A stretch of 64,000 nt of DNA from Fodinicurvata sp. EGI_FJ10296. GTDB taxonomy: Bacteria; Pseudomonadota; Alphaproteobacteria; DSM-16000; Inquilinaceae. A program made the translations under genes and the position numbers. This document shows positions 29,547 to 62,572 of this stretch, one piece after another (the first letter of the stretch is position 1; each line of letters starts with the position of its first letter). The notes beneath the pieces were generated by a model that was given only the letters and a program-made list of their open reading frames with translations, was not told the origin of the DNA and did no database searches. The stretch is taken from positions 310,001 through 374,000 of the forward strand of contig NZ_JBFCVL010000005.1 in the NCBI RefSeq assembly GCF_040712075.1, written 5' to 3'.

Positions 29547-29582
29547 AACGGCCAGGACTTCCGCCCGCCGGAATAGGTGGCC

Positions 29583-29722
29583 GTGAACTGGGCCGAGATC
29601 CGAGCGACGCGGAACGACAGGCCTGGCGCGTCTATCGCAAGGCCCTGCGCGATATCACCGACGCCTTCGAGGAGCCCCAAGGCGTCGCCTGGCCGGATCC
29701 GCCATCGGCGACTGACGGCTAA
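29583..29722 (+). pseudogene. phage tail assembly chaperone remnant
   Basis: The plus strand starts NWAEIRATRND in one frame, then continues in another as DAERQAWRVYRKALRDIT and ends DAFEEPQGVAWPDPPSATDG with a stop at 29722. Together these are the start and end of the small tail-fibre assembly/chaperone proteins of contractile-tail phages, with the central ~20 residues deleted and the frame lost. The tail sheath remnant lies 0.7 kb downstream in the same direction, as in P2-like phages. Confidence 0.65.
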
Positions 29723-30078: not shown

Positions 30079-30088
30079 GGCGTCGCTC

Positions 30089-30340: not shown

Positions 30341-30445
30341 TGGCTTATAATAGCTGATGGCGACCATAGAGCCAATCAATATTTCGCTGACAGCGAATTT
30401 CACCGCTCGCCAGCGTGTGGGTTTTTTATGCCCAAAGGAGGCTCA

Positions 30446-34998: not shown

Positions 34999-35742
34999 TC
35001 AGTCCTCCCCGCGTGGCACCGCGTTGACGACGTTCAGCACGATGCCGATCACGCGCACGTCGCTGGCTCCGTCCGAATTCATTGGCAGCGGGGCCTGGTG
35101 GTCCCGGTGGCTGGACTGGGGCCATAGCCACTCCTGTCCGGCTGGATCCCGTTTGTAGATCGCCACCCGACGCTCGACCAGCGGGTCATCGTGCCGCTCG
35201 GCAACAACAGTATCGCCGCTTCGCAAGGGGCCAGCCGGCCCGTCGGCCGCCGTACAGATCACGACTGTTCCCTCAGGAAATCGCCGGTCCATCGAAGGAC
35301 CCACCAGCGTAACAGCAAAATCCGGCCGCGAATTCCCTTGCGAATCCGCCGCATACACATAACTCATCTCATCCTCGGCAATCACTTCCTGCCACACCCC
35401 TGGGGCGGCATCTCCAATAAGCGGAACTTGTGATATGCCTCCGTAGTCATTTACTTTTGGTTGATAAACTTCCGTTTCAGAGTGGTTTTCGCGTGTGCTC
35501 ACGCCACCTTCAGGTGATCCCTCACCCGTCATCAGCCAGGCCGCGCTGACCCTGAACGCCTTGGCGTACTGAACCGCCCGCTTGAATGGCAGCCCACGGC
35601 TTCCGTTCTCGTGCGCCAGATAGGTCGGCAGCTTCCAGCCGAATGCACGACCCGCCTGCGAGGCTTCGTCGTAACCGGCCCGCCTGCGCGCCCACTTCAA
35701 ACGATCCGCCGGCTCGGCATACCGATCAAACGCGTCTGTCAT
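34999..35742 (-). CDS. phage repressor, XRE plus S24-like domain, apparently non-cleavable
   Basis: A 247-residue CI-type repressor. It has an N-terminal helix-turn-helix (residues ~12-55) and a C-terminal S24/LexA-like domain. The nucleophile is in VGPSMDRRFPEG (S150). In related repressors LVETTVK carries the general-base lysine about 43 residues later; here the same place reads LVERRVA, with Ala at 194. The usual Ala-Gly scissile pair reads A-P-G (residues 113-115). So self-cleavage seems impaired. Flanked by paired operators. Confidence 0.88.
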   Translation of the reverse strand: MTDAFDRYAEPADRLKWARRRAGYDEASQAGRAFGWKLPTYLAHENGSRGLPFKRAVQYAKAFRVSAAWLMTGEGSPEGGVSTRENHSETEVYQPKVNDYGGISQVPLIGDAAPGVWQEVIAEDEMSYVYAADSQGNSRPDFAVTLVGPSMDRRFPEGTVVICTAADGPAGPLRSGDTVVAERHDDPLVERRVAIYKRDPAGQEWLWPQSSHRDHQAPLPMNSDGASDVRVIGIVLNVVNAVPRGED

Positions 35743-46022: not shown

Positions 46023-48071
46023 TCATTCATGAATTGCTTTCCGAAGGGCATCTCGCGCATCAGCGTAGAAGAGAACCTGGATTTTCGTCGCCACGTCGTC
46101 TGAAAGGTCAATCAATGATCTGCGACTAGAAACAGGCAAGAGCACGGCGCTCGCTCCCTTTTCCATGGCAAGCTCGACAACGTCGATTGGGTTGTGAACG
46201 GGTTCGATGGAGCCACCCAAAGTGATTCCCCCGGCGACAACCAGGCCACCCTTCAAAGGCTTGCCGAGCAAGGCAGAGCAAAGTCCAACAAGAATTCCAA
46301 CGCCGAGTTGCTCGCCGCTCTTTGCCGCATCGAACGATCGGATCTGGATAGCGAATTCATGTTCGCGCGGCTGGCGTTCACCGACAAGCTCCTTTGATCG
46401 CGCATATAGATTTTGCTCTGCAATGCGAACGCTTTCGCGAAATGGGCCGGGAGGATTCTGGTTTAGAATACGAATGCCCCCGCCGGGGCTTTCAGTTACT
46501 TCAATGCGAAACAACCCAGTGCTTTCATCCTGACCACCTGGACTGATGGCCCATATCTGGCCGGCTGGCAGTGGGTCGGAAGCAATGCCATCAGCGCTCT
46601 GCAACTCGGGTGTGGAGACAAATTTCTCTACCCCGTCCAGTCCAATCGTGTAGCTGAACTGAGTATTACGAAACTCGGCCGAGCCGATGCGCTTCTGCTG
46701 CTCCTTGACACGACGACGTACTTCCAAGGCAAGGCGAACCGCCCATTCGAGATCGTCATCCGGCACCGCGACAGATGGATCGGGGTAGAGGAGCTTCAAC
46801 AGGCCTGAGACTGTCTTGTTAACGGCATTTTGGTCGCGACCGGAAAGGGCACCCCCAAAGTGCACTCGTCCCTGCAGGACATTCGCGCGACTTTGCGAGC
46901 GAAGCCGCGAGAAGCTTTCCGCGAGAACGTCGCTTACAAGCCCGAAACGGTCGGTGAACAATTCCTTGCTTATCTTAGGAACGTCCCATCCTGGCAGATA
47001 GCAGTGGATGCGGTCCATAAAGGCGGTGTCGTTGCGCATCTCAGGCGGCATCGGTCCAAAAAGATGTCCGACCCGCTGCTGGTGCTGCACGTCCACATCG
47101 AAGTTGCCGACCATTACAATACTGCCATCGGCGCGAATACTCTCTCGCCCGCGCGAGAATTCCCCCGACTCCATGTAGCCTTTCATGATGTTGACGCCGT
47201 CTTTCTGGTCGAAGGAAACGCCCGAGACCTCGTCGAAGCAGACGACATCGTATTGGCAAACAAGCCCGCGCTGCCCATTCTGCATATTAACGAACATTCG
47301 CGCGACTGTTGCCTTGCCACCAGAGACGAGGTGCGCATAAGGCGAGACTTGCTGGAAAAGGTGGCTCTTGCCCGTCCCGCGCGGGCCGAGCTCGATCATA
47401 TTGTAGTTCCGCTCCACGAACGGGACCATGCGAAGCAGCGTCGTGTCCTGAGCCCGGGCGCTGAGTGCTGCCGGCTCCAGGCCGACACTCCGTAAGAGGA
47501 AATCCTTCCATTCGTGCGTAGAAAGTTGGGCGCGACCGGCAGCAATTTTATCCAGAATATCGCGTGTCGATAGCTGAATTTCGCGGAGGCTTAGGATTTC
47601 AAACGGCCGGCCTCCTTTCTCTTGCGCGATGCTAGCGTCATAGCCAAGCTCGACCTCCGCATAGAACCCGCCGGTCAGCATTCGCTCATGGTCGAGGACG
47701 ATCTTGTCCGAAATCCGTACGTCGTTCACCCGAAGGCTCGGCAAGGTCGCCAGGTAGCTGTCGGTTTTAAAGTCGAGCCGGGCAGTAACGATGTCGATGA
47801 TACGCACGGACCCGCGGTCGCGCGCCTTGGATTTGAACAGCTCCTCCTCACCCGCCCGGACTGTACGATCCGAGAGCTGCGACTGTACCATCTGAAGGCC
47901 TTCTTCAATCTCTTCAGGCACAGTACTGGCGCAATAGCGGCCGAGCATGAACTCGACCACATAGGTCGGCACGGGGAACTGGCCTCGAAAGCGGCGCACC
48001 AAATCCTTGCGCACGATGTGACCGGGGAAGGCTTCCGCCGCCTTGCGGTCCAGGTCGTCGAGTTCGATCAC
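46023..48071 (-). CDS. brxL: BREX protein BrxL (AAA+ with Lon-like C-terminus)
   Basis: A 682-residue protein. The AAA+ core has Walker A GPRGTGKS (residues 229-236) and Walker B VVCFDEV (279-282 carry FDEV). The C-terminal ~150 residues match the Lon-like domain of BrxL (AAKSGEQLGVGILVGLCSALLG, then VVAGGITLGGSIEPV). The Lon serine and lysine are not visible at their expected places (KSGEQLG and VHNPIDVVEL). BrxL is needed for phage restriction but not for methylation in type 1 systems. Last gene of the BREX operon, one base after pglZ. Confidence 0.93.
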   Translation of the reverse strand: MIELDDLDRKAAEAFPGHIVRKDLVRRFRGQFPVPTYVVEFMLGRYCASTVPEEIEEGLQMVQSQLSDRTVRAGEEELFKSKARDRGSVRIIDIVTARLDFKTDSYLATLPSLRVNDVRISDKIVLDHERMLTGGFYAEVELGYDASIAQEKGGRPFEILSLREIQLSTRDILDKIAAGRAQLSTHEWKDFLLRSVGLEPAALSARAQDTTLLRMVPFVERNYNMIELGPRGTGKSHLFQQVSPYAHLVSGGKATVARMFVNMQNGQRGLVCQYDVVCFDEVSGVSFDQKDGVNIMKGYMESGEFSRGRESIRADGSIVMVGNFDVDVQHQQRVGHLFGPMPPEMRNDTAFMDRIHCYLPGWDVPKISKELFTDRFGLVSDVLAESFSRLRSQSRANVLQGRVHFGGALSGRDQNAVNKTVSGLLKLLYPDPSVAVPDDDLEWAVRLALEVRRRVKEQQKRIGSAEFRNTQFSYTIGLDGVEKFVSTPELQSADGIASDPLPAGQIWAISPGGQDESTGLFRIEVTESPGGGIRILNQNPPGPFRESVRIAEQNLYARSKELVGERQPREHEFAIQIRSFDAAKSGEQLGVGILVGLCSALLGKPLKGGLVVAGGITLGGSIEPVHNPIDVVELAMEKGASAVLLPVSSRRSLIDLSDDVATKIQVLFYADARDALRKAIHE

Positions 48072-48072
48072 C

Positions 48073-50346
48073 TCAATCCTCCCCGATCACCAGCCTATGG
48101 AGGGCCAATACTCGATCGTCATCATCGAGCACAACAAGACAGGCGGCTTCGCGTTCATGTTCATCACTCGCCAAGAACGATGTGCGTCCCTGCTCGTCGA
48201 GGACCCGGCCCCCCTTTACGAGGCTCTGTCCACTGGTTTCCGAACCGAGCCGCAAATCGACGCGGAGATCCGCTCCGCCGGCGACCTCGACGCGCAGGCG
48301 TAGTCCCTCCCAATTAGTTCGGTCGATCGAAACTGTCCGCTGTGGGCTACCATTCGCCACATCAATGACGGGCAGAATGCATTCTTGTGGGCTAACGCCG
48401 CCATGAGCATACTCATAGCTCGCGTAGAATGACCGCGCCCCTGTCGCGGTAGCCACCGAAATTTCAGGGTTCCAAGTCCACGGCACCTGAAGATAAGAAG
48501 TTTGCGCCCTTGCTTTCACCAGGGCGCAGCGAGTCCGCTTACCGTTCGGTTCCACTAGCCCCACATCGAGCGCCGCATGGGGCAATCCGCCGGGCATCAA
48601 CAACCAGCCATGGTCAGTGACGATGCGAAGGCTTCGCCCAGAGCGCAACAATCCGAGAATTCGATCTGCGACGTCGCGTATGGCGGCCGATAGGCGTTCA
48701 GCAAGGCGTGCCCCCAGGGCGTGTCCCTCTTCGTCAAAGCGTCCAGTCTCTGTCCAGAGCTTTGTGCCAGAAAGTAAAGCATTGCCGGTTTCCCAGCCTT
48801 GCGCTTCCATAAGCTTGAAGAGTACTGGCTTCGTCACCGGCTTCCCCTCGGGGGAGTGAGGCAGAACGTCGGAGGTGGCAGGTGGACCGACCAGCAGGGA
48901 GGCTACCGGCGAGACTATCGCCTTGCACGTCGCGGTGACAGTTGGAAATCCCGACCACATCCAGCCCAGGGATACCTTCACGCCTTCGGCTTCAAGGCGG
49001 CGAACAAGCTCGCGCGCAATGTCCATCCGCAATCCATCCACAAACAGGACCGTAGTAGCATCTGATTCGGCCTTTGGCGGTGCCGCGAGTCTGACCTTAC
49101 CGACCCGCATCAACTCTTGTAGCGCGTTTGCCCCTTGCTCAAGCCAAGGCAGGTAGACGGCACGGAGAGCGGCGGCGATTGCCTCATGATCGACCTCGCG
49201 CGGCGCTGCCGCCAGCGATTGCATAGCGGCCCAGTCGATATCGGCACTGGCCGAGACATACGCTTCCGCAAACGCATTACCCTCATGGCTCGGCAGCGCC
49301 TTGGCCGCCGCCACCTCCGCGATAAATGCCAAGGCCTGAGCCAACGGTGCCTGCCCGCGCCGCGCCCAAATCGTCTCTCGCCGCCATGCGTGCTTGGTTT
49401 CCAACTCAGCGACGTTCGCTCTTGCAGCTTCAGGAGAGATATCAGCCAGTCCAAGGAGCTGTTGACGCAGATCGTCTTCACCTTTTGAGTTGATACGTGG
49501 GTAGGAATCCTGGTGCTCGAAAAGCGTTCCTGGTTCTTGGAAATTAAGATAGGCCACGACTTGCTCATAGCCGGTGGATGCTCCAAAACGCGCCCAAACC
49601 TCCGCCCACCGCCCTTCGCGCTTGGCCAACCGTCGCACGGCATCTTGTGGGGACAGCCTGCGCGGATCGAATTTCAATTGCTTGTCGGCGATGTTGGCAA
49701 AGGCCGCGAAACGCGACGGATCGCCCAACTCTGTGAAGGCACCTTCGATCCAATCAAGCATGTCGGCGGCGAGGTCGGGGGCGAGCAGCGCATTGAGATG
49801 GTCCGCGTTCCAGCGTTGGCCGCGCAGCTCCTCAACGGGGCGCGAGCAGAAGCGCTGCGCCGCGTGGGAGAGCGCCGTGCGGGTCGCGTTGTCGTCAGCG
49901 ATGTTTAGTTTCAGCAACCCGCGTTCGGAAGTGAGGAAGCTGCGCAACGTCCAGTCCTTGCCGTTGACATGGCCGAACATGGTGCCTGCCACCGTGAACC
50001 AGACCAGCGGCTGAAGGAGCGTTGGACAGTCGTCGACGCCCTTCAGCGTCTCGCGGGCGACGCCGGGCAAATAGAGGATTGGCGTGCTCTCCTCGGGAAT
50101 ATCGACGGCGGGAAGGGCACCGGCCACTGCAGCGCGCAGCCAAACCGCCGGTCCCGTCCGTGTATCTGCATCGAACTCGCCGTAAGTCAGCAGCTCTGGA
50201 AGCCGCTCCCGCAGCGCCGGCAAAAGGGGTTCGAACTCCCTATTGGCGTCGCACCACACCACAACTTCCGGCGGCGCCTCGGCCGCGGCGTTGTAGCTCG
50301 CGGCGTAGTGCAGGGCGCTGACGAGGGCATCGAGAGGCGTCGTCAC
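48073..50346 (-). CDS. pglZ: BREX phosphatase-like protein PglZ
   Basis: A 757-residue protein of the PglZ family. The alkaline-phosphatase-superfamily core is seen in VLFVDGLRMDIARELVRRLE, GFPTVTATCKAIVSPVAS and VTDHGWLLMPGGLPHA, which supply Asp, Thr and Asp-His metal ligands. A domain of about 400 residues precedes it and a beta-rich tail follows. It looks nearest to the PglZ variant called type B in type 1 BREX systems, an inference from length and motifs. Four-base overlap with pglX. Confidence 0.93.
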   Translation of the reverse strand: MTTPLDALVSALHYAASYNAAAEAPPEVVVWCDANREFEPLLPALRERLPELLTYGEFDADTRTGPAVWLRAAVAGALPAVDIPEESTPILYLPGVARETLKGVDDCPTLLQPLVWFTVAGTMFGHVNGKDWTLRSFLTSERGLLKLNIADDNATRTALSHAAQRFCSRPVEELRGQRWNADHLNALLAPDLAADMLDWIEGAFTELGDPSRFAAFANIADKQLKFDPRRLSPQDAVRRLAKREGRWAEVWARFGASTGYEQVVAYLNFQEPGTLFEHQDSYPRINSKGEDDLRQQLLGLADISPEAARANVAELETKHAWRRETIWARRGQAPLAQALAFIAEVAAAKALPSHEGNAFAEAYVSASADIDWAAMQSLAAAPREVDHEAIAAALRAVYLPWLEQGANALQELMRVGKVRLAAPPKAESDATTVLFVDGLRMDIARELVRRLEAEGVKVSLGWMWSGFPTVTATCKAIVSPVASLLVGPPATSDVLPHSPEGKPVTKPVLFKLMEAQGWETGNALLSGTKLWTETGRFDEEGHALGARLAERLSAAIRDVADRILGLLRSGRSLRIVTDHGWLLMPGGLPHAALDVGLVEPNGKRTRCALVKARAQTSYLQVPWTWNPEISVATATGARSFYASYEYAHGGVSPQECILPVIDVANGSPQRTVSIDRTNWEGLRLRVEVAGGADLRVDLRLGSETSGQSLVKGGRVLDEQGRTSFLASDEHEREAACLVVLDDDDRVLALHRLVIGED

Positions 50347-53300
50347 TTCGCCGCCTCCACCCGTATTGGAGCGGCCACACGCGCGGCGCGCTTCTCGGCC
50401 AGAGTGGTATGGTGATCGTTGCGGCGCTCGCCCTTGAATACCTCGTACCAGGGCGCAGATGGCGCGTCGTTGCCGCGATCCTTGTCCTTCAGAATTTTCG
50501 ACAGGTCGTGGGTCAGCACACCTGCCTTGATGAAGGGGCGGATGTTCTGGCGCACGCCATCATCCAGGTCGGGGTCCCACCCGAGCGGCTGCTGGGCGAG
50601 AGGCTTCCAGCGCACGAAGATGTCGTAGGGTTGCTCGCCTTCCAGGATCTTTTCCAGCTTCTGCTGCAACTCGCGGCCCTTTTCGTAGCGCAGCGTGTTG
50701 CCTTCCGCCTTGGCGCGGGCGAGCCAGTCGCCGAGCAGGGTATAGGTGAGCTTGCGCAGGTTGGCCTGGTCAAAGCGGTGGTAGTGGGCCAAGACCGAGA
50801 AGCCGTCCTTCAGCCCGTCCGAGATGTGCCACAGGAACGGGCGCTGGCCGAAGAGAGCGCAGTGCTGCCGGAAGGCGCGGTCGCGGAGCCAGGTTTCGAG
50901 CGAGCCGTCCCGTGCCACCTTCTTGTCGAGGAGCTCATCGGCGTCGCTAACCAAACGGCGTTCCAAGGCGTCGGACCAGTCGGCGCCAAACGCGGCGGCG
51001 AGATAGCGGCGCAGGCGGTCGGCCAGCGACTTTTCTCCTGCGACGGGCGGGACGCCAACTAGACCGTCATTGTCAGCTGGGGGAAGTTCTGAAGCTTCTA
51101 CAATCCAGGCGCGGGCCTCATCGGAAAGATGCATTCTGTCGTCACTCTCGGCTGGCCAGCGATACCCTGATATCCGTGCGAGCGCGACGTGCAGTGAAAC
51201 TCCTGATCTGGCGTTCCTCGGATGCCCGTGAAAGAGCCATTGGGTTGGATCAGGCGAGGTAGGAAGAGGGAGGCCGCATTTATACTTTTTATCAAATACA
51301 TCTTGCCATTTTTTCAAGTTAAATGGCACTTTCGTTAGAGTTGCATTTGTGATGTTCTTCTTCTTATCAATGTTCCGCAGCTCCACCTTGTATTCCTTTG
51401 AGGAGCAGTACTCAAAAATCGGCCCAACATGCTCCGAGTTCAGCGGAACGATTGCAGAAACATTTCCATCGAAGCGTTCCCCAAGATAGAGGGAAGCTGG
51501 CAGATGTCTCATTTGACTAACCGCAACGCCAAGCTTTCCGAAGCAACCCTCGCCACGCAAAGCTGCAAAATGTCTTCCGCCATCACCCCAAAAGACTATA
51601 TTCTGGCAGCCACTAAAGTGAGTGTCTTCGGAAACAGTGCTTCGAAAATATGTCCAATCTGAGTTTGGAAGCGCATTCTCCCAAAATAGAAGCTTGTAAC
51701 GATCAACATCGCCCGTGCTTATGCCCTGATATGCGTGCGCATATCGAGACAACAAAGGTAGGTTATCCATTTTTGCTGCGGTGATCCGGCTATCTGGGTT
51801 CGATAGCTGATCGGTTTGTTTCAATAGCTCGAGATCTCCAGATTGAATGTGCGCAAACTTCTCATGAATTGACTCCACGTGAGTGGCATCACTTGCAAAG
51901 TGAAAATTGCTTTCCTCTACCTTTTTTCGTGTCCAAGAAGTAAGCGTGGCAAGCGGACCGCGCTTTTTGAATGCAACCCAAGCCTCTTCACCAAGAAATA
52001 CTGCAAAATCCAGGTGATATTTTTGTAGTAGTGAAATGCGGAAGTCTCTATAGCTCACCAGGAAGCACCACTCTTGTTTTGTGACGCTCGCTGTTGCCCC
52101 TCCAGGATTCAACATGCTCAAAGTTCTTTGAACCATTGAAGTCGATAAGCACTGTTTCGCCGTCGGAAAATGTGAGTCACAGTACTCAAGCATTTGAGAT
52201 GACTGTTCTCCGCGACCTAAGAAAGGAACATTTGTTGCAACAAGAGTATATTTTCCGGTGAGCATATTAATAGCATCTGCCATCCCCCTGGCCGCAAATG
52301 CACCTTCGATAACGTCGGGCTCAAGCTGTTTTGCTCTTGAAATCAACCGAGACAGCAGCCGAGTGAATTCCCGCATCTTTTCGGACTCGAAGAGGTCTCC
52401 ACCAGCTGGTTCCAATAAACTACCAAGTATGGGCGCTTGGCTGAAAAGTTCGTGCATTGCATCAAGAGCATAAGCCAATTCAGCATCACCCTGCGCAAGG
52501 CTCACGAATTCTCGTTTCGGCAAAGGTGGGGGTGCGCCTACCCATGCAATATGGGGCGACGGTAGGATCTGCCATCCGCCAATGCGCCAAGCACTCAGCG
52601 CCACGGCAAACGCCGCGATCTGCACACAGCGCCCATCGATCTCCAATCCATGGAGATTGTCGCGCAGCACTGCCGCGACCGCATCGGCGGACAACAAATT
52701 CTCATCTGCCTCGCGAAACGCCGTCAGGATGGCCAATGCCTCTGTCAGGAAGTGCCCAGACCCGCAACATGGGTCGAGGACCGTGACTGCCCTGGCCTCT
52801 TTCGGCCAACCGGGAAATGTACCCGCTGCCGGGCGCCAGGGGCCGTCTTCTCCTTCGCGCACGAACCGCAGCATGTCGAAGGTGTAACCGGGCAGCGAAC
52901 AGGCTGCACGCAAGGCAGCCTCGTCCGCAGCCGATTGCGCAAGCGCCGGATCGGCTGCCAGAACCTTGCCAGCCCACCAGGCCCCGAGCGTGTTGTGCAG
53001 CAGGAAGCGTACCATATAGGGCTCGGTGAACAGCTGCGTGACAGCCGGCAGTTCATCGGCCCCGGTCTTCACCCCCGACGCGTTGACCGCATCCTTCTCG
53101 GCCGCACGCCAGAACTGATAGGTCCAGCCCAGACTGTCCTCGGCTTGGAAGACCTCTGCGTCGAGCCCCGTCACCAGGCGGTGCAGCTTCTGGGTATGAA
53201 CCGGGTCGAGTTCGAGTGCGAGCACCGGATCGTCGATGCGGAAAACTGCGGGCAACATCGATGCGGCATACCGCTCGGCGATCACCCATGGGTCGGTCAG

Positions 53301-53681
53301 GCCCTCGGCTTCGGCGAGCTCCCGGCAGTCCTCCAGCGAGACCGGCACGTCATACTCCGGATTCCGCAGCAGACCGCGCTCGGCCAGGAACCGTGCGAAG
53401 AGCATGCGGTGCCAGTGCGCATAGGCCGCCGCTTCGAGCAGCCTTTTCGTTTCCTGCGACTCGTCCGACCTATTGAATGCGTCGCCCAGCGCACGGGCAT
53501 GGGCACGCAAGCGGCGGCGCAATCCCTTCTCGGCATCGTTCAGGTAGGAAGGTGCCTTGCCGTCCGCCACGCCGAGGCGCTGAATTGCATCGCCCGCGCC
53601 TTCTTCGGCAACTATACGCGCGTCCTTGACCGTCTTTTCGAGTATCCGGCGCAGAGCTGTGGGGAGGTAGCGGTTCGTCAT
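50343..53681 (-). CDS. pglX: BREX adenine-specific DNA methyltransferase PglX
   Basis: A 1112-residue methyltransferase that marks host DNA at N6-adenine in type 1 BREX. SAM-binding motif LDPCCGSGHF is at residues 302-311. The catalytic motif, usually NPPY, reads NVPF (484-487), a variant I recall in a subgroup of PglX. Residues ~400-815 (51.24-52.48 kb) are encoded by clearly more AT-rich DNA than the ends, suggesting exchange of the recognition region. C-terminal third is alpha-helical and highly GC-rich. Overlaps pglZ by four bases. Confidence 0.93.
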   Translation of the reverse strand: MTNRYLPTALRRILEKTVKDARIVAEEGAGDAIQRLGVADGKAPSYLNDAEKGLRRRLRAHARALGDAFNRSDESQETKRLLEAAAYAHWHRMLFARFLAERGLLRNPEYDVPVSLEDCRELAEAEGLTDPWVIAERYAASMLPAVFRIDDPVLALELDPVHTQKLHRLVTGLDAEVFQAEDSLGWTYQFWRAAEKDAVNASGVKTGADELPAVTQLFTEPYMVRFLLHNTLGAWWAGKVLAADPALAQSAADEAALRAACSLPGYTFDMLRFVREGEDGPWRPAAGTFPGWPKEARAVTVLDPCCGSGHFLTEALAILTAFREADENLLSADAVAAVLRDNLHGLEIDGRCVQIAAFAVALSAWRIGGWQILPSPHIAWVGAPPPLPKREFVSLAQGDAELAYALDAMHELFSQAPILGSLLEPAGGDLFESEKMREFTRLLSRLISRAKQLEPDVIEGAFAARGMADAINMLTGKYTLVATNVPFLGRGEQSSQMLEYCDSHFPTAKQCLSTSMVQRTLSMLNPGGATASVTKQEWCFLVSYRDFRISLLQKYHLDFAVFLGEEAWVAFKKRGPLATLTSWTRKKVEESNFHFASDATHVESIHEKFAHIQSGDLELLKQTDQLSNPDSRITAAKMDNLPLLSRYAHAYQGISTGDVDRYKLLFWENALPNSDWTYFRSTVSEDTHFSGCQNIVFWGDGGRHFAALRGEGCFGKLGVAVSQMRHLPASLYLGERFDGNVSAIVPLNSEHVGPIFEYCSSKEYKVELRNIDKKKNITNATLTKVPFNLKKWQDVFDKKYKCGLPLPTSPDPTQWLFHGHPRNARSGVSLHVALARISGYRWPAESDDRMHLSDEARAWIVEASELPPADNDGLVGVPPVAGEKSLADRLRRYLAAAFGADWSDALERRLVSDADELLDKKVARDGSLETWLRDRAFRQHCALFGQRPFLWHISDGLKDGFSVLAHYHRFDQANLRKLTYTLLGDWLARAKAEGNTLRYEKGRELQQKLEKILEGEQPYDIFVRWKPLAQQPLGWDPDLDDGVRQNIRPFIKAGVLTHDLSKILKDKDRGNDAPSAPWYEVFKGERRNDHHTTLAEKRAARVAAPIRVEAAK

Positions 53682-53684
53682 GCA

Positions 53685-56600
53685 TCACACCTTTGGAATC
53701 ACGGGACCGTCGCCCAGCGTATTGGCAATTCGCTCGCGGACTTTGGCAAGCCAGTCGTCCAGCTCCGCCTCGTTCTTCAGCAGTGCGCCCGGCAGGTTCA
53801 CGGCGCGTGCCTTGGGCTCCAGCAAGGCGGCGGCGGCGGCAAGTGCATCCTCGATGCGCGCCGGCAGCGCCTTCACCATGTTGTTCCACTCGGAAAGGCC
53901 GCGCTGAGACAGCGTCTCGGCGATGGCCTGAGGCGTATCCACAGCGGGCTTTTCCACCTTCAACAGCCCGCATTCCTGACGGATGCTGTGCTTCTCTTCA
54001 GGGGACAGCTTGGCCCAGGTCGGATCGTCGGCGAGCCGCTGCTCTCCCTTCTGCCATGCCGCCTTCCAGGCCGCATGAGTGGCGTTCAGCTTCGCCCGCA
54101 ACGTCTCCGCCGCCGCCGAGATCAAGGGCGGCACCGGATCTGGATCAGTGAGCAATCGCTGTCCGTCACGTAGGTCGTCGAGATCGCCCTGTTGTTCCGT
54201 GGCGCCCAGGGTGACTAAACGTTCCGCCAACCGCCAGTTGGGTAGCCGGTCGCCGATCTTCTGCGCGGCCACCTTCCATGCCTCCAGCTTGTCGCGCAAT
54301 GTGGCCGCGTCAGCCGCCAACGCGGCAAGGAGGTCATTGCCCGAAAGGCTCTTGTAGGAGGCCATATTGGGCACCGTTTCCGGCTCCGGCGCCGGCGGCT
54401 GGCCACCGGACTGTCGCGCTGCCGTTTCGAGGCGTTCGAGAAGCGCCGTCAGCACCAGGTGTTCCTGGTTGTTCTCGAAGGCGATGCCCGCGTCGGTCAG
54501 CAGGCCACGCACAGGCATGCGCTGTGCGATGGTGATGATCGTTGTTTCGCCGTGGAACGTGCAGGTACCAAGCTTCTGGCGTGGCAGATCGGGAAGCGAA
54601 GCAGATTTCAAATCCTCGCCGGTGACGCGGACCAGCCCCGCATTGGCGAGGACGATGAGCGCGCCATCGACGGTATCTTGTGACCAGCCATAGGGCGGAC
54701 TGGTGAACTTCGAGCGCAGGTCCGAACCCTTCCGGCCGGGGCCGAGCTCGGCCAGCAGCGCCTTGCACACCACATGGCTCTCCGGTGCCCCGGCATGGTC
54801 CACCGCCTCCATGGCGTCCGGGTTCTTGCGCATCGCTCGGTCGCGCACCTTGTCCCAACCCGGGTGGTCGCCATCGGCAAACTGCGGGTAGAGGCGGGCA
54901 AGAGCGTTGGTCGCTCCTTCCCTCACTGCTTCGTCTGGCGCGCCCGGGATCAGCTTGCCGCCAGCCTGATAGACATAGGCCTGCGCCACTGCCTCCCGGA
55001 CAATCTCCTTAGCCACGGCCTCCGCCTTGTTCGCGCGGGATTGCATGGCGGACTGCGCCTCGCGTCCCGCGTCGGTCTGCGGTACCCCACGAGCCTGCAG
55101 TACATTCTCAGCGCCGCGCCAGGTCACCAGCGCATTCGTCAGTTCTTTGTCACGGGTTGGATGGCGCGGGATGAGCAGATAGACGGAAGGATCCGATGTT
55201 GATGCCGCTGCAATATCCTTCTCCACCACCACCAGGTCGTCGTTCCACCCATTTTTGAGGCGCAATTGGATGCCATCCGCCGGAGACTTGTCACCAGGGC
55301 CCAGTCGGTGAATGCGGCGTTGCTGACGACTGGAGCCGTGTCTCACGTTGGTGGCGCCCGCCAAGGCGGTTCCGATCGCCTCGTCCAGCAGTTCACGTCG
55401 CGACCTGGTGAGTCCGGATTGATCTGCCAGTATCGCCTTCTCCTCTCTGCGATACGCGGCTTCCCATTCAGCGCTCTCTTTCGTCTGCAAGCGCCATTCA
55501 CCGCCGACCTCGATCACCGCTCCATCGGACTGAAGGTCCTGCAACAACTTGGGCACCGTGCGGCGTAGCTCGTCCTCGCCTGCAAGATTGACGATCAGGA
55601 GATCGGCGATGGTCTCCGCCTTTGCGTGGACGCCGTGATGGTCCGCCTCCCGCGCGATGCGACCCAGCATATAGACCAGCATGAGGATGCGCGCCTTCAG
55701 CCGATCCTTTTCGGTGCCGCTGTGCAGCGCTTCAATACGGTTGCGCGTCTCTCCCGGCAGAAGCCCGGCGTTGTAGGCCTCAGTGGAGAACCGCCCATAT
55801 AGGAAGTCGACCGGCACCGCGTGTCCCAGCGGTTTATCGCCATAGGTGCGAGCCGCATCCAGTGTGGTGCGCAGTTGTCCACGCAAAGTGCCACCAAGTC
55901 CTGTCCGATCAAGCTCACGCAGGATGTTTTCCCAGACTCGGCGACGGGATGGAAGGAGCGGCCAGTCGAGTACTGCCTCAGCGTCATCCTGTACAGTGTG
56001 TGCCAGTCGGCTGCCGCGCAGGTGCCTGCTAATCTCGCCTGAATTGGTGCTCAGCATATTGCGAATAGATTCTTCAGCTCCCGCTTTCTTCCGAAGAACG
56101 GTTTTGCGGACGACAGCATCGACATCCGCTTCTCCGAGCGCGATCTGCACAGGGAATCGGTCGAGAAGCTTTTGAAGATCTTGTACATCGCTTAGCGCCT
56201 GCTGACCGGTAGCGACCAACATGACGCGACCGTCGAACCGTCCCGCAAGTCGTTCGGCTATGGTCTGTATCTTCAGCGTCAGACTAGGGTCTTGCCGGAT
56301 GAACTGCTGCACTTCATCGAGAACGATCAGGGTCAATGGCAACTCGGCTCGACCCAGCATGAGGGCTTTTCGAATCATCGATTCCAGGAGATCGACGGTA
56401 ACGGCGGGCGGCTCAGCAAATTGTGAGCGGAGAAGGCTACTTAGGTCTTTGGGCGAATCAGCAAGGTCTGGCTTGGCCTTCAAGACCGCCGAACCAAAAC
56501 GGGGTGAGAGAATGAAATTACGAATATCGGTCTCGAAGGAGTTGCCCAGGTTCGTACGAACGCTATCCAAGATCTCGAGATCGTCGAGCCAGAATGCTAC

Positions 56601-57107
56601 TTGAGCAGCGCGGAGATCAGTGGGCAAACCAACTGCCCGTAGCACAACCCCAATCGTGGCCTCGGCCGGATCGGACGGACCTGTTCCAAGCGTATCGCCG
56701 GCCGCCAGGACGCCATCCGCGCGTTTCGCCGCAGTCCGCAATTCTTTCAGCGGCGCGGCAACCTCCGTCGGCAAGTGTGGGATTAATCCTTCAGCCGTGG
56801 CGCCGTCCACAAACTCAAAATTCGTCCACAAAGCCGCCAGCATGCTCGCAAGGTGGGACTTGCCAGAACCATAGAACCCTGAAACCCAAACCGACGGAGC
56901 AGTACCACCGTGGCCTACAGAACCAAGAAATGCTTCCAGTATTCGGGCGAGCCCATTAGCATAGGCTCCATCACACACGAAAGTCTCGAGCTCACCACGT
57001 AGCGTTTCCAATGCTTCCGCCGTTGGCGGGAAAGAAGTCTTTGCAACCCCTTGATTGGCTATCCTATATTCCGCCGGGTCGGTATAAAAAGTGTCTCGAT
57101 TGAGCAT
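53685..57107 (-). CDS. brxC: BREX ATPase BrxC
   Basis: A 1140-residue protein with an N-terminal P-loop (SGFYGSGKSHL, Walker A at residues 77-84), Walker B in LTLIVLDEVQQF, a long middle region, and C-terminal helical repeats. The family-typical N-terminus (MLNRDTFYTDPAEYRIANQGVAKTSF) and the GAGGGG site settle the start at 57107; the frame runs open to 57221 over brxB. BrxC is required for both methylation and restriction. Confidence 0.93.
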   Translation of the reverse strand: MLNRDTFYTDPAEYRIANQGVAKTSFPPTAEALETLRGELETFVCDGAYANGLARILEAFLGSVGHGGTAPSVWVSGFYGSGKSHLASMLAALWTNFEFVDGATAEGLIPHLPTEVAAPLKELRTAAKRADGVLAAGDTLGTGPSDPAEATIGVVLRAVGLPTDLRAAQVAFWLDDLEILDSVRTNLGNSFETDIRNFILSPRFGSAVLKAKPDLADSPKDLSSLLRSQFAEPPAVTVDLLESMIRKALMLGRAELPLTLIVLDEVQQFIRQDPSLTLKIQTIAERLAGRFDGRVMLVATGQQALSDVQDLQKLLDRFPVQIALGEADVDAVVRKTVLRKKAGAEESIRNMLSTNSGEISRHLRGSRLAHTVQDDAEAVLDWPLLPSRRRVWENILRELDRTGLGGTLRGQLRTTLDAARTYGDKPLGHAVPVDFLYGRFSTEAYNAGLLPGETRNRIEALHSGTEKDRLKARILMLVYMLGRIAREADHHGVHAKAETIADLLIVNLAGEDELRRTVPKLLQDLQSDGAVIEVGGEWRLQTKESAEWEAAYRREEKAILADQSGLTRSRRELLDEAIGTALAGATNVRHGSSRQQRRIHRLGPGDKSPADGIQLRLKNGWNDDLVVVEKDIAAASTSDPSVYLLIPRHPTRDKELTNALVTWRGAENVLQARGVPQTDAGREAQSAMQSRANKAEAVAKEIVREAVAQAYVYQAGGKLIPGAPDEAVREGATNALARLYPQFADGDHPGWDKVRDRAMRKNPDAMEAVDHAGAPESHVVCKALLAELGPGRKGSDLRSKFTSPPYGWSQDTVDGALIVLANAGLVRVTGEDLKSASLPDLPRQKLGTCTFHGETTIITIAQRMPVRGLLTDAGIAFENNQEHLVLTALLERLETAARQSGGQPPAPEPETVPNMASYKSLSGNDLLAALAADAATLRDKLEAWKVAAQKIGDRLPNWRLAERLVTLGATEQQGDLDDLRDGQRLLTDPDPVPPLISAAAETLRAKLNATHAAWKAAWQKGEQRLADDPTWAKLSPEEKHSIRQECGLLKVEKPAVDTPQAIAETLSQRGLSEWNNMVKALPARIEDALAAAAALLEPKARAVNLPGALLKNEAELDDWLAKVRERIANTLGDGPVIPKV

Positions 57108-57117
57108 GCGTCGCCCC

Positions 57118-57663
57118 TCAAAATTCGGTTTCAGCCGGAATCGGAATGGCGTGGTAATTCCATCCGTCCCGTGCATCGAGCAGACGGTATACGCCAGCAG
57201 AGTGCGTTCCAGGAAAGCCAACGAGAAGCCGACCAGGGATAGAGTCTGCGATTCGGCTGATCAGGGCCGAAACTCGCACGATTCCGAACAGCGCTCCGCA
57301 ACCGTCAACGGCGAGGACGTCATTAGAAGTGCAAGCGCGCAACCCATGCGTGATTTCGTTTACAAGGCTGTTCTCAATCTCAGGCAAGAGACCTCTTAGC
57401 TCGGCCGGTTGTTCGACCAGGGCATCGAAAAATTCGTGTTGTGCGATCCAAGCGCCGAACCAACCCGAAAGGGAAATTTGATGCCAGCCATGCCCAGCCC
57501 GGAACGTCGCGTGTTCGAATTCTGCGAGACGCCCTGTAAATCGACGTTGAAGCGACTTGTCATACCAAAGTATCCAGACGCGGGCCGCAGGGGGCACATC
57601 CGTTGCCCAGGGCAGTTGCACTTGCCTGTTGTACGCGGCGAGGATGTCATCAAACGTCTTCAA
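57118..57663 (-). CDS. brxB: BREX protein BrxB (DUF1788)
   Basis: A 181-residue DUF1788 protein (MKTFDDILAAYNRQVQLPW, then WILWYDKSLQRRF, GLLPEIENSLVNEI, FGIVRVSALISRI and RLLVGFPGTH). The family is found almost only in BREX loci, and BrxB is thought to join the core complex. It overlaps brxA by 14 bases and ends ten bases before brxC. Confidence 0.93.
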   Translation of the reverse strand: MKTFDDILAAYNRQVQLPWATDVPPAARVWILWYDKSLQRRFTGRLAEFEHATFRAGHGWHQISLSGWFGAWIAQHEFFDALVEQPAELRGLLPEIENSLVNEITHGLRACTSNDVLAVDGCGALFGIVRVSALISRIADSIPGRLLVGFPGTHSAGVYRLLDARDGWNYHAIPIPAETEF

Positions 57664-58492
57664 GTCCTGGCACCCCTAGTGCGACCGCCATTGGATGGCG
57701 GATGGAAATTTCGGTTACATCGCCCGCAGCCCGAACACGTACCAGGCCGATTGATTCGGCGCGTCGCAAGGCGTCGAGAGCTTGTTCGGGAGCAAGGTCC
57801 AGAACTTTCATCCAACCGGAGTTCAAGATAGCCGGCCCCCCGAAGCCGGACGCTGTCGCAATTAGCGCCGCAAACGCAACCGTCGGAGGAGTAGGCGAAA
57901 CGCGCTGCCTAATTTTCTTGATTGCACCCTTCAGATGCCCACTCTGTGTCCAAGACGATGCGCAGTTCTGTGCGAGCGACCGAAGCATTTTCTCGCTGAA
58001 GCGTCCAGGAAATGCCGTGACTAGAGCATCTTCAAATAGCGGGCGCTGCAAGCTTTGCCCCACCGACCCCGTCATAGCAACGTCCGCCGTCTCTCGCAGA
58101 AGCGGATCACGAGCCAGGGCAACGAGCAAAGCTTGCAAGCGACGACCTTGGATATCGCTTTTCCACAATTTCACGAACGCCTTCGTCAGTTCTGGCTGAT
58201 CAACGAGTCCATAGAGATTGGCCAAATGCCGAAATGTCAGACGCCTCGTGTTGCCGGTCGCCTTGCCAATTGCGTTCTCATCAATGGCGGCCGAGCGGAA
58301 CTCATCCGGCCTCAATGCACCAGTCGCCATCAGGGCTTCAAGCTCGCTGAACATCATCGTCTTGGATTGATGTGTTCCGCCGCCTGAACGTTTGATACCG
58401 AACGAGGAGAGCCTAGCATCTTCAGCACGCGCGCCGCGCCAATGCGCCGCTTCTGGTGCATTTCGGACGCGGATTCCGCCATTGCTCGCCAT
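57650..58492 (-). CDS. brxA: BREX protein BrxA (DUF1819)
   Basis: A 280-residue helical DUF1819 protein (SKTMMFSELEALMATG, LTFRHLANLYGLVDQPELTKAF, LARDPLLRETADVAMTG, then GAIKKIRQRVSPTPPTVAFAALI). BrxA has a NusB-like fold and binds DNA in studied systems. The ATG at 58492 lies one base after the stop of the RHH regulator, which fixes the start against one at 58546. Confidence 0.92.
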   Translation of the reverse strand: MASNGGIRVRNAPEAAHWRGARAEDARLSSFGIKRSGGGTHQSKTMMFSELEALMATGALRPDEFRSAAIDENAIGKATGNTRRLTFRHLANLYGLVDQPELTKAFVKLWKSDIQGRRLQALLVALARDPLLRETADVAMTGSVGQSLQRPLFEDALVTAFPGRFSEKMLRSLAQNCASSWTQSGHLKGAIKKIRQRVSPTPPTVAFAALIATASGFGGPAILNSGWMKVLDLAPEQALDALRRAESIGLVRVRAAGDVTEISIRHPMAVALGVPGLEDV

Positions 58493-58493
58493 T

Positions 58494-58700
58494 TCAGTCT
58501 TTGTTCGAAGCGCGAGCATGTAGAGTATCTTCACCTTTCTTATCAACCGAATGAGATCGCTTGATGAACTGTCTTATGGCTTGCCGAATCAACCATGAGA
58601 GCGACACGTCGCTGGCGTCAGCGAGCTTCGCCAGCGCATCATGGTCTTGCTCTTCGATACTGACCGTCAGGCGTGTCGTTTTCCGAGGTCGGCTAGCCAT
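58494..58700 (-). CDS. ribbon-helix-helix regulator heading the BREX operon
   Basis: A 68-residue CopG/RHH protein (KTTRLTVSIEEQDHDALAKLADASDVSLSWLIRQAIRQFIKRS) with GGAGG six bases before the ATG at 58700. It is directly followed by brxA with a one-base gap. Many BREX loci instead have a WYL-domain regulator (BrxR). A perfect inverted repeat lies 43 bases upstream of its start, a likely operator. It probably represses the BREX operon. Confidence 0.85.
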   Translation of the reverse strand: MASRPRKTTRLTVSIEEQDHDALAKLADASDVSLSWLIRQAIRQFIKRSHSVDKKGEDTLHARASNKD

Positions 58701-58742
58701 CCTTTCCTCCGGTCCGGAAGCGCGCTCCAGTCTGTACGAGAC

Positions 58743-58759
58743 TGCATCATTCCGATGCA
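58743..58759. promoter_or_regulatory. candidate operator for the RHH regulator
   Basis: TGCATC-N5-GATGCA, a perfect 6+6 inverted repeat, 43 bases before the start of the RHH gene and inside the BREX promoter region. RHH proteins bind such short palindromes. Assignment is by position. Confidence 0.6.
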
Positions 58760-58837
58760 TTTTTCACCAGCAATCCGTCAGTGCAGGAATTTCGTCAGAG
58801 AAGGCTGGAATACTCACCGAGGGATTGAATGTTGCAC

Positions 58838-58973: not shown

Positions 58974-59540
58974 ATGCTGGTCATCACCGACAATGTCACC
59001 CAGGCGATCAACCGGCTGCGGCGGCACCAGCGCCGGCATGTGCCGTTCGCCATGGCGCGGGCGATGACGCTGTTGGCGCGCGAGGGGCGGGACGCGGTGC
59101 GCGAGTCGCTGCCCGAGCGGTTCAACCTTCGGCGGCGCTGGGCCGTCCACGGCATCCGGTTTCAGTTCGCCACCAAGCAGTCGCTGACCTCGACCGTCTA
59201 TTCCCGCGACCGTTTCATGGTCGAGCAGGAAGTCGGCGGCACCAAGACCGAGAATGTGCGGCCCATCCCGGCCGGGCGGCTGGCGACGCTGCACCGGCGC
59301 CGGGCAATTCCCCGGTCGCTGACGGCGCCGCGGATGAAGCGGCGCGACGACGTGTTCGAGCGTGACGGCATCCTGTGGCAGGCCAAGCCCGACCGGATTG
59401 AACCACTGTATGTCTTGGCGCAGCGACTGCGTATGACGCCGCGCCTGGGCATGCGCGAACAGGTCGAGGATCTGGCCGGCCGGCGCAGCGAGCCGGTGTT
59501 CGCCCGTGTCCTGCGCGAGGCCACGGCGCAGGATCGATAG
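58974..59540 (+). CDS. phage head/tail-region protein of unknown function
   Basis: A 188-residue basic protein (MLVITDNVTQAINRLRRHQRRHVPFAMARAMTLLAREGRDAV, then FNLRRRWAVHGIRFQFATKQ). The start resembles the N-terminal helix of gp10-like minor tail proteins that sit near terminase genes, but it is not certain. First gene after the BREX island in phage order. Confidence 0.65.
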   Translation: MLVITDNVTQAINRLRRHQRRHVPFAMARAMTLLAREGRDAVRESLPERFNLRRRWAVHGIRFQFATKQSLTSTVYSRDRFMVEQEVGGTKTENVRPIPAGRLATLHRRRAIPRSLTAPRMKRRDDVFERDGILWQAKPDRIEPLYVLAQRLRMTPRLGMREQVEDLAGRRSEPVFARVLREATAQDR

Positions 59541-59970
59541 CCCGCCGATTCCGAGACCCTTCGCTGTCATTTGATAATGCCTCGCCCTCTTATGAAAGAC
59601 CAGATTAGGGCCTGCAGGCGGCATTACCGAATTCCGCTGAACGCGCTGTCGTGGCCCGTGACGGGCGTCTTTTCGTCGGCCGCTCGATGGGTAAACCGGC
59701 GGCCTCGCGCGCCCTACGACCCGAGACGGCGCCCTGCCCGCACCCGGGCGGGGACCCTGGGCCCTGAGCCCAGTGAGGTGCCGCTTGAGCGCAGGGCTCC
59801 GGTGTTTTGGAAAATTTTGATCCCGAGGCAGCGTCAGCATCCCACCCGAATATGCTATTGTGATCAATGACTTACCGGAATTCCGATGCACAATCGGGCC
59901 GATTTGGCCTGTCACCCCTCCCCCGGATTTCTCAACAATCTCAATTCGTTAGGCGAAAAGGGATGCACAA
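59541..59970. other. non-coding or unassigned region before the terminase genes
   Basis: About 430 bases with only Arg/Pro-rich frames that I do not trust. It contains the hairpin CTGGGC (59757-59762)/GCCCAG (59768-59773). In lambdoid phages the cos site lies just before the small terminase, so a packaging site could be here. Confidence 0.4.
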
Positions 59971-60552
59971 TTGGCCGGCAGGACCAAGAGAACCGAAAGC
60001 TTGGTCAACGCCGCCGCGATCCTGGGCCTGCACCGCAACACGCTGGCCCAGTGGATCAAGCAGGGCTGCCCGGTGGTCACCGAGGCCGACCGCTCCCAGG
60101 GCATCGAATGGGCGATCTGCGTTGCCGACGTCGTCGAATGGCGCGTGCGGACCGCGGTCGAGGACGCGCTGTCCGGCTATGACGACGGCGCCGACCGGAT
60201 CAGCCGGGACGAGGCCGACCGCCGCCGCGCGGTCGCCCAGGCGATCACGGCCGAGGTCGAGGCCGATCAGGCCCTTGACCAGGTCGTCGACCGGAGCGAC
60301 GCCGAGGCCGACATCGCGACCTTCTGCGCCGGCCTGCGCGCCGGGCTCTCCAACGCCGCGGCCAAGATTGCCTCGCGCACCGTCACCATGGAAAGCGCCC
60401 CGGAGATCCAGGACCTGGTACTGGGCGAGCTGAACCGCGCCTTCGACACAGCCGAGGCCGAACTGGCGGAACAATGGGCCCTCGCCGCACCGGAGGACGG
60501 CGACCCGGAGACGACCGATGATGCAGACGGAACCGGCGGGAACGGCGGCTGA
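59971..60552 (+). CDS. phage terminase small subunit (Nu1-like)
   Basis: A 193-residue protein with an N-terminal helix-turn-helix (LVNAAAILGLHRNTLAQWIKQGCPV) of the Nu1/DUF1441 type, a long helical middle and an acidic Gly-rich end. It starts at TTG with AAGGGA upstream and overlaps the large subunit gene. Recognises the packaging site. Confidence 0.82.
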   Translation: MAGRTKRTESLVNAAAILGLHRNTLAQWIKQGCPVVTEADRSQGIEWAICVADVVEWRVRTAVEDALSGYDDGADRISRDEADRRRAVAQAITAEVEADQALDQVVDRSDAEADIATFCAGLRAGLSNAAAKIASRTVTMESAPEIQDLVLGELNRAFDTAEAELAEQWALAAPEDGDPETTDDADGTGGNGG

Positions 60553-62572
60553 ACGGATCGGACGCCACCGCCGGGGTGATTATCAGCGCGGCCGCCACAG
60601 CCTGCGCCGGCATATCCGCCAGCTGTTCGACACCGCGCTCCGGTATCGCGAACGGCTCAGCGGGTCGGAATGGGCCGACCGTTACGGCGTCATCCCCAAG
60701 GGCACCGGCGCGGAACACGGGCCGGTCACGCTCTACGGCTATCAGCGCGGCCTGGTCGATGCCATGTGCGACCCGTCGATCCCGCTGGTCACGGTGCTGA
60801 AGGCGGCCCGGGTCGGCTATACCCGCTGCGCCACGCTGGCGATCGGCTACCACCTGCACCAGGAAGTCGCGCTCTGCGCCGTCGCGCAGCCGACCATTCC
60901 CGACGCGGAGGATTTCGGCGGCTCGGAGATCGCGCCGATGCTGCGCGAGACACCGGTTCTGTCCCGGCTGCAACGGCCGGGGCGCAAAGGGGAGAAGCCG
61001 GACAAGGCAACCTTTCACCAGCTGGCCAACGGCGCCTCGGTCCGGGTGGTCGGGGCGGCATCCGACGATGCCTTCCGGCGCTATTCGGCGCGCTTTCAGT
61101 TCGCCGACGAGGTTGACGGCGACGGCTGGACACCCGGCGCCAAGACCCAGGGCGAGAAGCTCAAGCTGTTCTGGACACGCGGCGAGACGTTCTGGAACCG
61201 CAAGCAGGTGCGCGGCTCGACGCCGCTGATCGAGGAGACCTCGCGCATCTGGAAGCTCTGGCATCAGAGCGACCAGCGCCGCTATTTCGTGCCCTGCCCG
61301 CAATGCGGCGAGATGCAATATCTCGACTGGGGCGGCCCCGATCAGGTGCACGGTCTCAAATGGCAGCTGACCGAGGACGGCAAGCTCGACGACGTCTGGT
61401 ATGTCGGCACCTGCGGCTGCATCATCGAGGAACGCCACAAGGTCTGGATGGACGGCCAGGGCGAGTGGCGGCCGACCGCGACGCCGCGCACGCCGGGTCA
61501 TGTCGGGTTCCATCTGTGGACCGGCATGTCGCTCAACCCGAACGCGGCCTGGCGGGTGATCGTCGAGGAATGGCTCGAGGCGCTGGAGAACCCGGCGGAC
61601 CTGGTCCAGCCCTTCGTCAATCTGCGCCTCGGCAAGCCGTATAAGGCGGTCAACGGCAAGGAACTCAAAGCCCACAGCCTGTTGGAGCGGCTGGAAGACT
61701 ATGGCGCCATCGTGCCGGCGGGCGTCCGGTTGCTGACGGCCGCCGCCGATATCCAGTCCGGCACCGTCGACCCCCGGATCGAGGTCGCCGTCTGGGGCTG
61801 GGGCGCGGGGCTGGAATGCTGGCTTATCGGGCATTGGGTGCTGAGCGGCGATCCCGGCCAGACAGCCGTGTGGTCCGAACTGGACGCGCTGCTGAAGCGC
61901 AGCTTTCCGCGCGCCGACGGCCGGGCCCTGCGCATCGAAGCGACCGTGATCGACAGCGGCGGCCACCACACCGCCGAGACCTATCAGTTCGCCAACGAAC
62001 GGCGGCTCGACCGGGTTTGGGCGATCAAGGGCCGGTCGGAGAAGAACGGCGAGCGCGGCCGGGTCTGGCCGACCAAGCCCAGCAACAAGCTGGGGCGCGT
62101 CTGGTACATGATCGGCGGCAATGCGGCGCGCGACTGGGCTTATGGCTCGCTGGCCGTGGAAGACCCCGGCCCGCGCTTTGTCCATTTCCCGGCCGCGCCG
62201 CCGGTCGGTTCGCGCCCGATCGACAACGAGTATTTCGAGCAGCTGACCCGCGAGCGGCTCAGCATCAACCGCAAGGGCTTTACCGAATGGATCAAGCCCC
62301 GGGGCGCGCATGAGGCGGGCGTTTGTTTCGTCTACGCCTATGCCGCGCTCTGTGGCCTGCAGACGATCAGCCCGCGTTTCGTGACCGCCGTCAAAAGCGA
62401 GGCAGCGCCCACGGCCGCCCCGCAGGCCACTGCCGATTCGCCGCCAACGCCCGCGCCAGCCGACGACCAGCCGGCCCCGGAGCCCATAAGCAGGCCGCCA
62501 CCCAAGCCGCCACCCCGGCCGCGCGCGCCGCGCAAGCGCCGCGTGATCCGCAGTTCCTTCATGCAGCGATAG
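60518..62572 (+). CDS. phage terminase large subunit (GpA-like)
   Basis: A 684-residue GpA-family terminase. The ATPase part has VLKAARVGYT as the modified Walker A and FADEVDGDGW as Walker B. The C-terminal part holds the nuclease region (AAADIQSG, VIDSGGHHT) and a proline-rich tail. It cuts and packages phage DNA into proheads. Overlaps the small subunit gene by 35 bases. Confidence 0.92.
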   Translation: MMQTEPAGTAAERIGRHRRGDYQRGRHSLRRHIRQLFDTALRYRERLSGSEWADRYGVIPKGTGAEHGPVTLYGYQRGLVDAMCDPSIPLVTVLKAARVGYTRCATLAIGYHLHQEVALCAVAQPTIPDAEDFGGSEIAPMLRETPVLSRLQRPGRKGEKPDKATFHQLANGASVRVVGAASDDAFRRYSARFQFADEVDGDGWTPGAKTQGEKLKLFWTRGETFWNRKQVRGSTPLIEETSRIWKLWHQSDQRRYFVPCPQCGEMQYLDWGGPDQVHGLKWQLTEDGKLDDVWYVGTCGCIIEERHKVWMDGQGEWRPTATPRTPGHVGFHLWTGMSLNPNAAWRVIVEEWLEALENPADLVQPFVNLRLGKPYKAVNGKELKAHSLLERLEDYGAIVPAGVRLLTAAADIQSGTVDPRIEVAVWGWGAGLECWLIGHWVLSGDPGQTAVWSELDALLKRSFPRADGRALRIEATVIDSGGHHTAETYQFANERRLDRVWAIKGRSEKNGERGRVWPTKPSNKLGRVWYMIGGNAARDWAYGSLAVEDPGPRFVHFPAAPPVGSRPIDNEYFEQLTRERLSINRKGFTEWIKPRGAHEAGVCFVYAYAALCGLQTISPRFVTAVKSEAAPTAAPQATADSPPTPAPADDQPAPEPISRPPPKPPPRPRAPRKRRVIRSSFMQR

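Follow-up and report, generated by a model that had tools for sequence, protein, structure and literature searches.

The first gene of a type I bacteriophage exclusion (BREX) operon in a prophage of Fodinicurvata sp. EGI_FJ10296 encodes a 68-residue ribbon-helix-helix (RHH) protein. This protein is probably a dedicated local autoregulator of the operon, which it would control through an array of dimers that bind GRTGYA half-sites and limit transcription (we put the probability at roughly 70%). The operon lies in a 64-kb stretch of contig NZ_JBFCVL010000005.1 (positions 310,001 to 374,000), here called the window, and all coordinates count from its first letter. A first-pass annotation had read this one BREX locus; comparison with relatives shows that the RHH gene belongs to a family whose members head defence operons of many kinds and share a half-site code set out on a 10-bp grid.

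As the first-pass annotation had it, the RHH gene (58494-58700) stands a single base before brxA at the head of the operon. On the minus strand, the ATG is at 58700 and the stop codon at 58496-58494, and only base 58493 separates the latter from the brxA ATG at 58492. Pfam RHH_1 (PF01402) scores the protein at 41.3 bits against a curated cut-off of 20.5, and PDB profile matches include CopG (1b01) and ORF56 (2k9i). An alternative open reading frame (ORF) of 88 residues starts from an ATG at 58760 that adjoins the upstream palindrome, and its frame crosses that palindrome; it is the 68-residue start that a good Shine-Dalgarno sequence, GGAGGAAAGG, precedes. Downstream, brxA, brxB, brxC, pglX, pglZ and brxL follow in one run on the minus strand (46023-58492), the gene content of a type I BREX system. 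Pfam and NCBIfam scans gave no WYL match, which separates the protein from BrxR, a WYL-domain protein with a winged helix-turn-helix (wHTH). Its RHH profile likewise sets it apart from the controller (C) proteins of type II restriction-modification (R-M) systems and, together with an upstream GRTGYA code, from RptR. It does carry the marks of the defence-operon RHH family proposed here, namely a [VA]Sx[AS]WxxRxA-like motif, a defence gene next and GRTGYA upstream.

The family set was chosen by an SxxWxxRxA-like motif and not by E-value; L076, which the motif filter missed, was added by hand. Left out were three near-duplicates (L062, L085 and L086), repeat plasmid matches such as H12, H15, H16, H18, H21-H23 and H41, one locus in which no ORF was found (L026) and one on a viral contig with the motif, no half-site and no downstream ORF listed (L025). 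Query P0001 found no match in the viral contigs, and alignment A1 found L024, L025 and L026 there. Start codons were picked by script, those of L030 and L123 probably wrongly. When grouped by likeness of protein or of upstream DNA, the 42 kept loci give 26 clusters, with L030 and L031 as one cluster each. Twelve weaker RHH matches that fail the motif (L036 and L065-L075) served as controls, their neighbours being judged by eye.

A defence or modification gene comes next in 40 of the 42 loci, and these genes belong to BREX-I, Dnd, Ssp, Pbe, Hma, SIR2-HerA and R-M systems. Where starts are clear, the gap mostly ranges from a 4-nt ATGA overlap to +27 nt. The scan of named genomes supplied two relatives: L002 (Rhabdonatronobacter sediminivivens), whose RHH protein is 74% identical and also encoded one base before brxA, and L003, whose RHH protein is 42% identical and precedes a methyltransferase-like gene. 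Relatives in plasmid records precede R-M operons, including BglII, NotI and Eco29kI systems, as well as dndC-dndD and a Hma helicase. Further relatives, from profile searches of genomes and viral contigs, precede Ssp, Pbe, SIR2-HerA, type I R-M and BsuBI/PstI systems and a DrmD-like helicase. The defence call at L035 is a weak one (an AAA protein, Ppl-like), and at L123 the next clear gene is SspB, about 1.1 kb on, with no clear ORF between. As observations apart, a short ELPL-like motif follows the RHH domain in L003, L012, L024, L027, L028, L030, L031, L076-L079 and L084, and the four BREX-associated RHH proteins have no such ending. In L076 (Roseomonas mucosa plasmid p5), the RHH-BglII-methyltransferase operon adjoins phage tail and lysozyme genes, and the replicon is possibly a phage-plasmid.

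Of the 42 loci, 35 have a GRTGYA half-site in the 120 bp upstream; the form of this motif, and the centring on its T used below, were both chosen after the first loci had been viewed. In 29 loci (window excluded), 52 sites were counted against a shuffle mean of 9.4 and maximum of 23, and 25 of these loci held a site against a mean of 7.8. The 12 control matches showed no excess (2 sites vs 2.5). With one locus per cluster (n=25, window excluded), there were 31 sites against 7.36 and 18 loci with a site against 6.20, values that none of 2000 shuffles reached. Moreover, a motif-free count of 6-mers placed CACCAC, GCACCA and GGTGCA at the top and GATGCA twelfth, and across all 42 loci GRTGYA gave 67 sites while three permuted motifs gave 5, 6 and 8. 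Half-sites pair in three arrangements, at an offset of 11 when inverted, 9 when everted and 10 when direct, and all three equal 10 bp when measured between the T positions. A pair at exactly that distance is present in 14 of 32 loci against 0.75 at random and in 10 of 26 cluster representatives against 0.28, in both cases with 0 of 20,000 random trials reaching the observed count.

L089, L090 and a later set of ten loci were found after the half-site had been named. A half-site is present in seven of the ten, where shuffles give 2.1, and the three centre distances observed among them were 10, 20 and 30 bp, all of which is consistent with the half-site rule. The set provides no independent confirmation, since most of its members are kin of earlier loci: L116, L117 and L120 are related to the first set, and L115 and L119 resemble each other.

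The window carries the same code. Its perfect TGCATC-N5-GATGCA palindrome, correctly picked out at 58743-58759 by the first-pass annotation, lies 42 bases upstream of the RHH ATG and is an inverted GRTGYA pair whose centres are 10 bp apart. Inverted repeats with perfect 6-bp arms and loops of 3-8 number 189 in the 64 kb, or 0.59 per 200 bp, so the palindrome taken alone is not beyond chance; there is one perfect copy in the window, and four places match with at most two mismatches against 4.29 expected. Judged beside its relatives, however, the palindrome exceeds chance in sequence and position. The window and its relatives align at the operator, where five loci (L002, L089 and L090 of BREX, L024 of an R-M system and L116 of a Snf2 helicase) share slots at offsets 0, 11 and 21 that read TGCAYC, GTTGNN and GATGNN. 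The window reads TGCATC, GATGCA and CGTACA at these slots. In the five relatives, the middle slot contains a TTG, and a TA hexamer (3/6 to TATAAT) lies 17 bp further; the two may represent a promoter lying under the operator.

Residue 12, a position in the predicted DNA-reading strand, tends to change together with a half-site base. In 32 loci, proteins with threonine here have 11 sites of the GATG type and 3 of the GGTG type, and those with serine have 12 and 31, respectively (Fisher p 0.0013 by sites, kinship ignored). Among cluster representatives, the p value of the association is 0.024 when sites are counted and 0.054 when loci are, and co-variation between this residue and the half-site base is thus suggestive only.

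A survey of BREX loci for RHH-brxA adjacency, which the first-pass annotation had proposed, bears out the pairing within a limited range. BrxA searches gave 17 loci. In the order to which the window belongs, one of 17 genomes had BrxA, that of the window itself, and no BrxA was found in phage records. All five loci with BrxA at least 60% identical to that of the window (window included) have the RHH gene or its remnant, the gene being intact before brxA in the window, L002, L089 and L090 and decayed in one. The pair is kept in these three relatives at BrxA identities of 61-77%, the L090 BrxA being compared across 155 residues only. The decayed case, L007 (BrxA 80%), retains only a 3′ remnant of the RHH gene (148 bp that are 72% alike to L002, with a 1-nt gap); the gene is mostly lost, the operator is lost and brxA is intact, a natural test of the need for the regulator, and a profile search of this genome found no other RHH copy. 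The RHH profile found nothing within 1.2 kb in the 12 distant loci (BrxA 30-40%). Because five of five close loci and none of 12 distant ones have the gene, RHH marks one BREX subclade in the 17-locus sample. A Pfam WYL gene stands directly before brxA in four of the 12 distant loci (L010, L011, L091 and L093), and L092 has a WYL gene fragment 92% alike to the end of the L093 gene. A different 18-bp palindrome, GCCGGCAAACTTGCCGGC, is found in identical form before brxA twice in L004, once in L005 (on the other strand) and once in L008; the first two are from alphaproteobacteria and the third from an Azospirillum lipoferum plasmid. No regulator gene was seen before brxA at this palindrome in the three loci, and it is possibly the operator of another BREX regulator.

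Taken together with these comparisons, a mechanism can be proposed in which an RHH dimer would read GRTGYA half-sites with its paired beta-strands, for which the 10-bp grid and the suggestive co-variation at residue 12 are indirect signs. Several dimers would then align on one face of the DNA in 10-bp steps over the promoter, presumably binding cooperatively; in the window, they would occupy TGCATC-N5-GATGCA and perhaps the weak third site too. The bound array would hold down transcription of both RHH and the brx genes downstream, and RHH and brxA are probably coupled in translation over the 1-nt gap. When the element enters an RHH-free cell, a burst of expression would be expected that settles as RHH accumulates, much like that of R-M controller proteins. 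Because no inducer domain is visible in RHH, the means of relief can only be guessed at, with dilution on entry into a new cell, a host protease or a phage factor as candidates.

Several observations weigh against this autoregulatory reading. The exact half-site is absent from 7 of the 42 loci, and L030 (judged by eye) and L031 have no defence gene next. In the later set, removal of protein kin leaves 3 of 6 loci with a half-site against 1.3 (596 of 5000 shuffles reach this), and removal of upstream-DNA kin as well leaves 1 of 4 against 0.8. The residue-12 association is not significant in the later ten alone (6:1 and 1:2, p 0.18), and two RTTV proteins (L032 and L084) oppose the trend. A consensus promoter scan upstream of the window RHH found no promoter, the best candidate being weak (7/12). 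Finally, the decay of the gene in L007 implies that BREX can persist without it.

It is also conceivable, though unlikely, that RHH activates the operon, or activates and then represses it, in the manner of an R-M C protein. The layout of C-protein systems, with a small regulator gene directly before effector genes (PMC12255303), and the TTG at a -35-like slot within the middle half-site of five relatives would be amenable to this. However, the half-sites overlap the candidate promoters instead of preceding them, and the RHH regulators Omega and PaaR are strictly repressors according to a review (PMC3874152). Autoregulation by RHH is most likely repression. A very improbable alternative makes the palindrome a plus-strand intrinsic terminator. 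A terminator-like match does fall exactly on 58743-58759 (a 6-bp stem followed by TTTTTC, where shuffles of the stretch would give 0.6), but the RHH and brx genes are on the opposite strand, and this reading was rejected because relatives keep the half-sites and their spacing and lose the stem, their middle slot being GTTGNN. Least probable of all is that RHH is an antitoxin or cargo gene beside brxA by chance: RHH folds are common among antitoxins and the control match L072 precedes a VapC-looking gene (by eye), but the gene after the window RHH is brxA with no cognate toxin, and both the RHH-brxA pair of three relatives and the defence or modification genes after 40 of 42 argue otherwise.

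The first-pass annotation had further proposed RHH as a control other than WYL for BREX that could couple the operon to lysogeny. The first part is supported insofar as RHH occupies the slot that a WYL gene has in some other BREX loci and the palindrome fits the code of the relatives; the coupling found no support. The window contains no second exact GRTGYA pair at centre distance 10, and the prophage encodes a separate phage-type repressor (34999-35742). A whole-genome search of exact inverted and direct pairs, the two geometries covered (everted, wider, weaker or differently spaced sites fell outside it), gave six other places, four of them inside ORFs by eye, close to the reversed-pattern control. 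Inverted pairs were found at three places (five matches over both strands) against one control match, and direct pairs gave four matches against three.

Autoregulators of defence operons are known, and C proteins of type II R-M systems, which have the HTH (helix-turn-helix) fold, also sit as small genes directly before restriction genes; they act as activator and repressor, whereas the window protein is an RHH. CopG, which serves plasmid copy control, and Omega share the RHH fold, yet their functions lie in toxin-antitoxin systems or plasmid copy number and not in BREX or R-M. Omega binds repeats cooperatively (PMC3874152). BrxR and CapW are WYL-domain repressors of their own promoters (PMC9122589, PMC9122601, PMC9122588), and they resemble the present case in heading BREX or defence operons with inverted repeats upstream; the window protein differs as a 68-residue RHH with no ligand domain and another operator. 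A WYL regulator is not needed in all BREX loci, and other regulation was not ruled out (PMC9122601). RptR, a 79-residue helical HTH-like protein, is a small repressor of R-M defence islands and binds repeated short sites cooperatively (PMC12255303), but its sites are TAGCTA, as opposed to the GRTGYA in 10-bp steps upstream of the RHH family. CapS likewise acts from upstream of immune operons through one half-site at varied spacings (PMC13373217), but it is a wHTH repressor with TTAA half-sites and a kinase partner, and no kinase turned up in the genes scanned for this locus. DndE brings RHH domains into modification-based defence, although as two RHH repeats within the modification machine (PMC10853773), unlike the single-RHH upstream gene of this family, which also precedes dndC-dndD operons in L077 and L078. 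In the uncharacterised defence clusters predicted by DefensePredictor, RHH is one of the three most common domains (PMC13092281). The terms RHH, MetJ and CopG are absent from the main text of a 2026 BREX survey (PMC12839542), and the matches listed from open-licence literature (supplements aside) included no paper in which an RHH family controls BREX or R-M operons. The RHH family and its operator code were thus not found in print in the literature searched.

A wider and distinctly tentative idea, against which the odds lie, is that a single RHH family, with GRTGYA on a 10-bp grid as its common code, has moved among BREX, Dnd, Ssp, Pbe, Hma, SIR2-HerA and R-M operons carried by prophages, plasmids and chromosomes, such that resident regulators could control incoming operons. 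If so, a resident RHH could keep the defence operon of an incoming element silent or release it, provided that the codes match; this would amount to immune control shared across elements and to a kind of incompatibility among defence systems. How defence operons are quieted and established in a new cell is an open question for most systems, and the known defence regulators have been called the tip of the iceberg (PMC12255303). A 68-residue protein with a readable code on many unrelated defence operons would make operators predictable from sequence and cross-talk measurable, and the GRTGYA motif can point to undescribed defence operons.

Table 1. Features of the window discussed in the text, with the matches or measurements that identify them.
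Feature	Position	Strand	Match or remark
Predicted operator, inverted half-site pair TGCATC-N5-GATGCA	58743..58759	.	start offset 11, centre distance 10
Degenerate third half-site CGTACA (4/6)	58733..58738	-	at the GATGNN slot of relatives
Best but weak promoter candidate TTGCTG-N16-AATGAT (7/12)	58746..58773	-	-10 inside palindrome
RHH (CopG/Arc-like) regulator gene, 68 aa, first gene of operon	58494..58700	-	RHH_1 41.3 bits; Arc-like PHROG
brxA	57650..58492	-	PADLOC BrxA 3.8e-75
brxB	57118..57663	-	PADLOC BrxB 3.3e-52
brxC	53685..57107	-	PADLOC BrxC 1128.9 bits; NF033441
pglX methyltransferase	50343..53681	-	PADLOC PglX 1292.1 bits; under NCBIfam BREX_1_MTaseX cut-off
pglZ, BREX-1 type B	48073..50346	-	NF033450 1e-215
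brxL	46023..48071	-	TIGR02653 3.7e-190
Phage-type transcriptional repressor gene (context)	34999..35742	-	phrog_4 9.1e-18
Minor tail, small and large terminase genes adjoining BREX block (context)	58974..62572	+	phrog_1924, phrog_57, phrog_15

The BREX operon is placed in a prophage because of its neighbours: a minor tail gene and the two terminase genes lie beside it, and further to its left there are repressor, replication and methyltransferase genes of phage type. The four long BREX genes (46023-57221) have a GC content at third codon positions of 0.63-0.68, compared with 0.87-0.89 in the neighbouring phage terminase genes, as for cargo of another origin. Finally, near the left side of the prophage (29241-30403), a toxin-antitoxin-like pair and a HigA-like antitoxin can be made out by eye.
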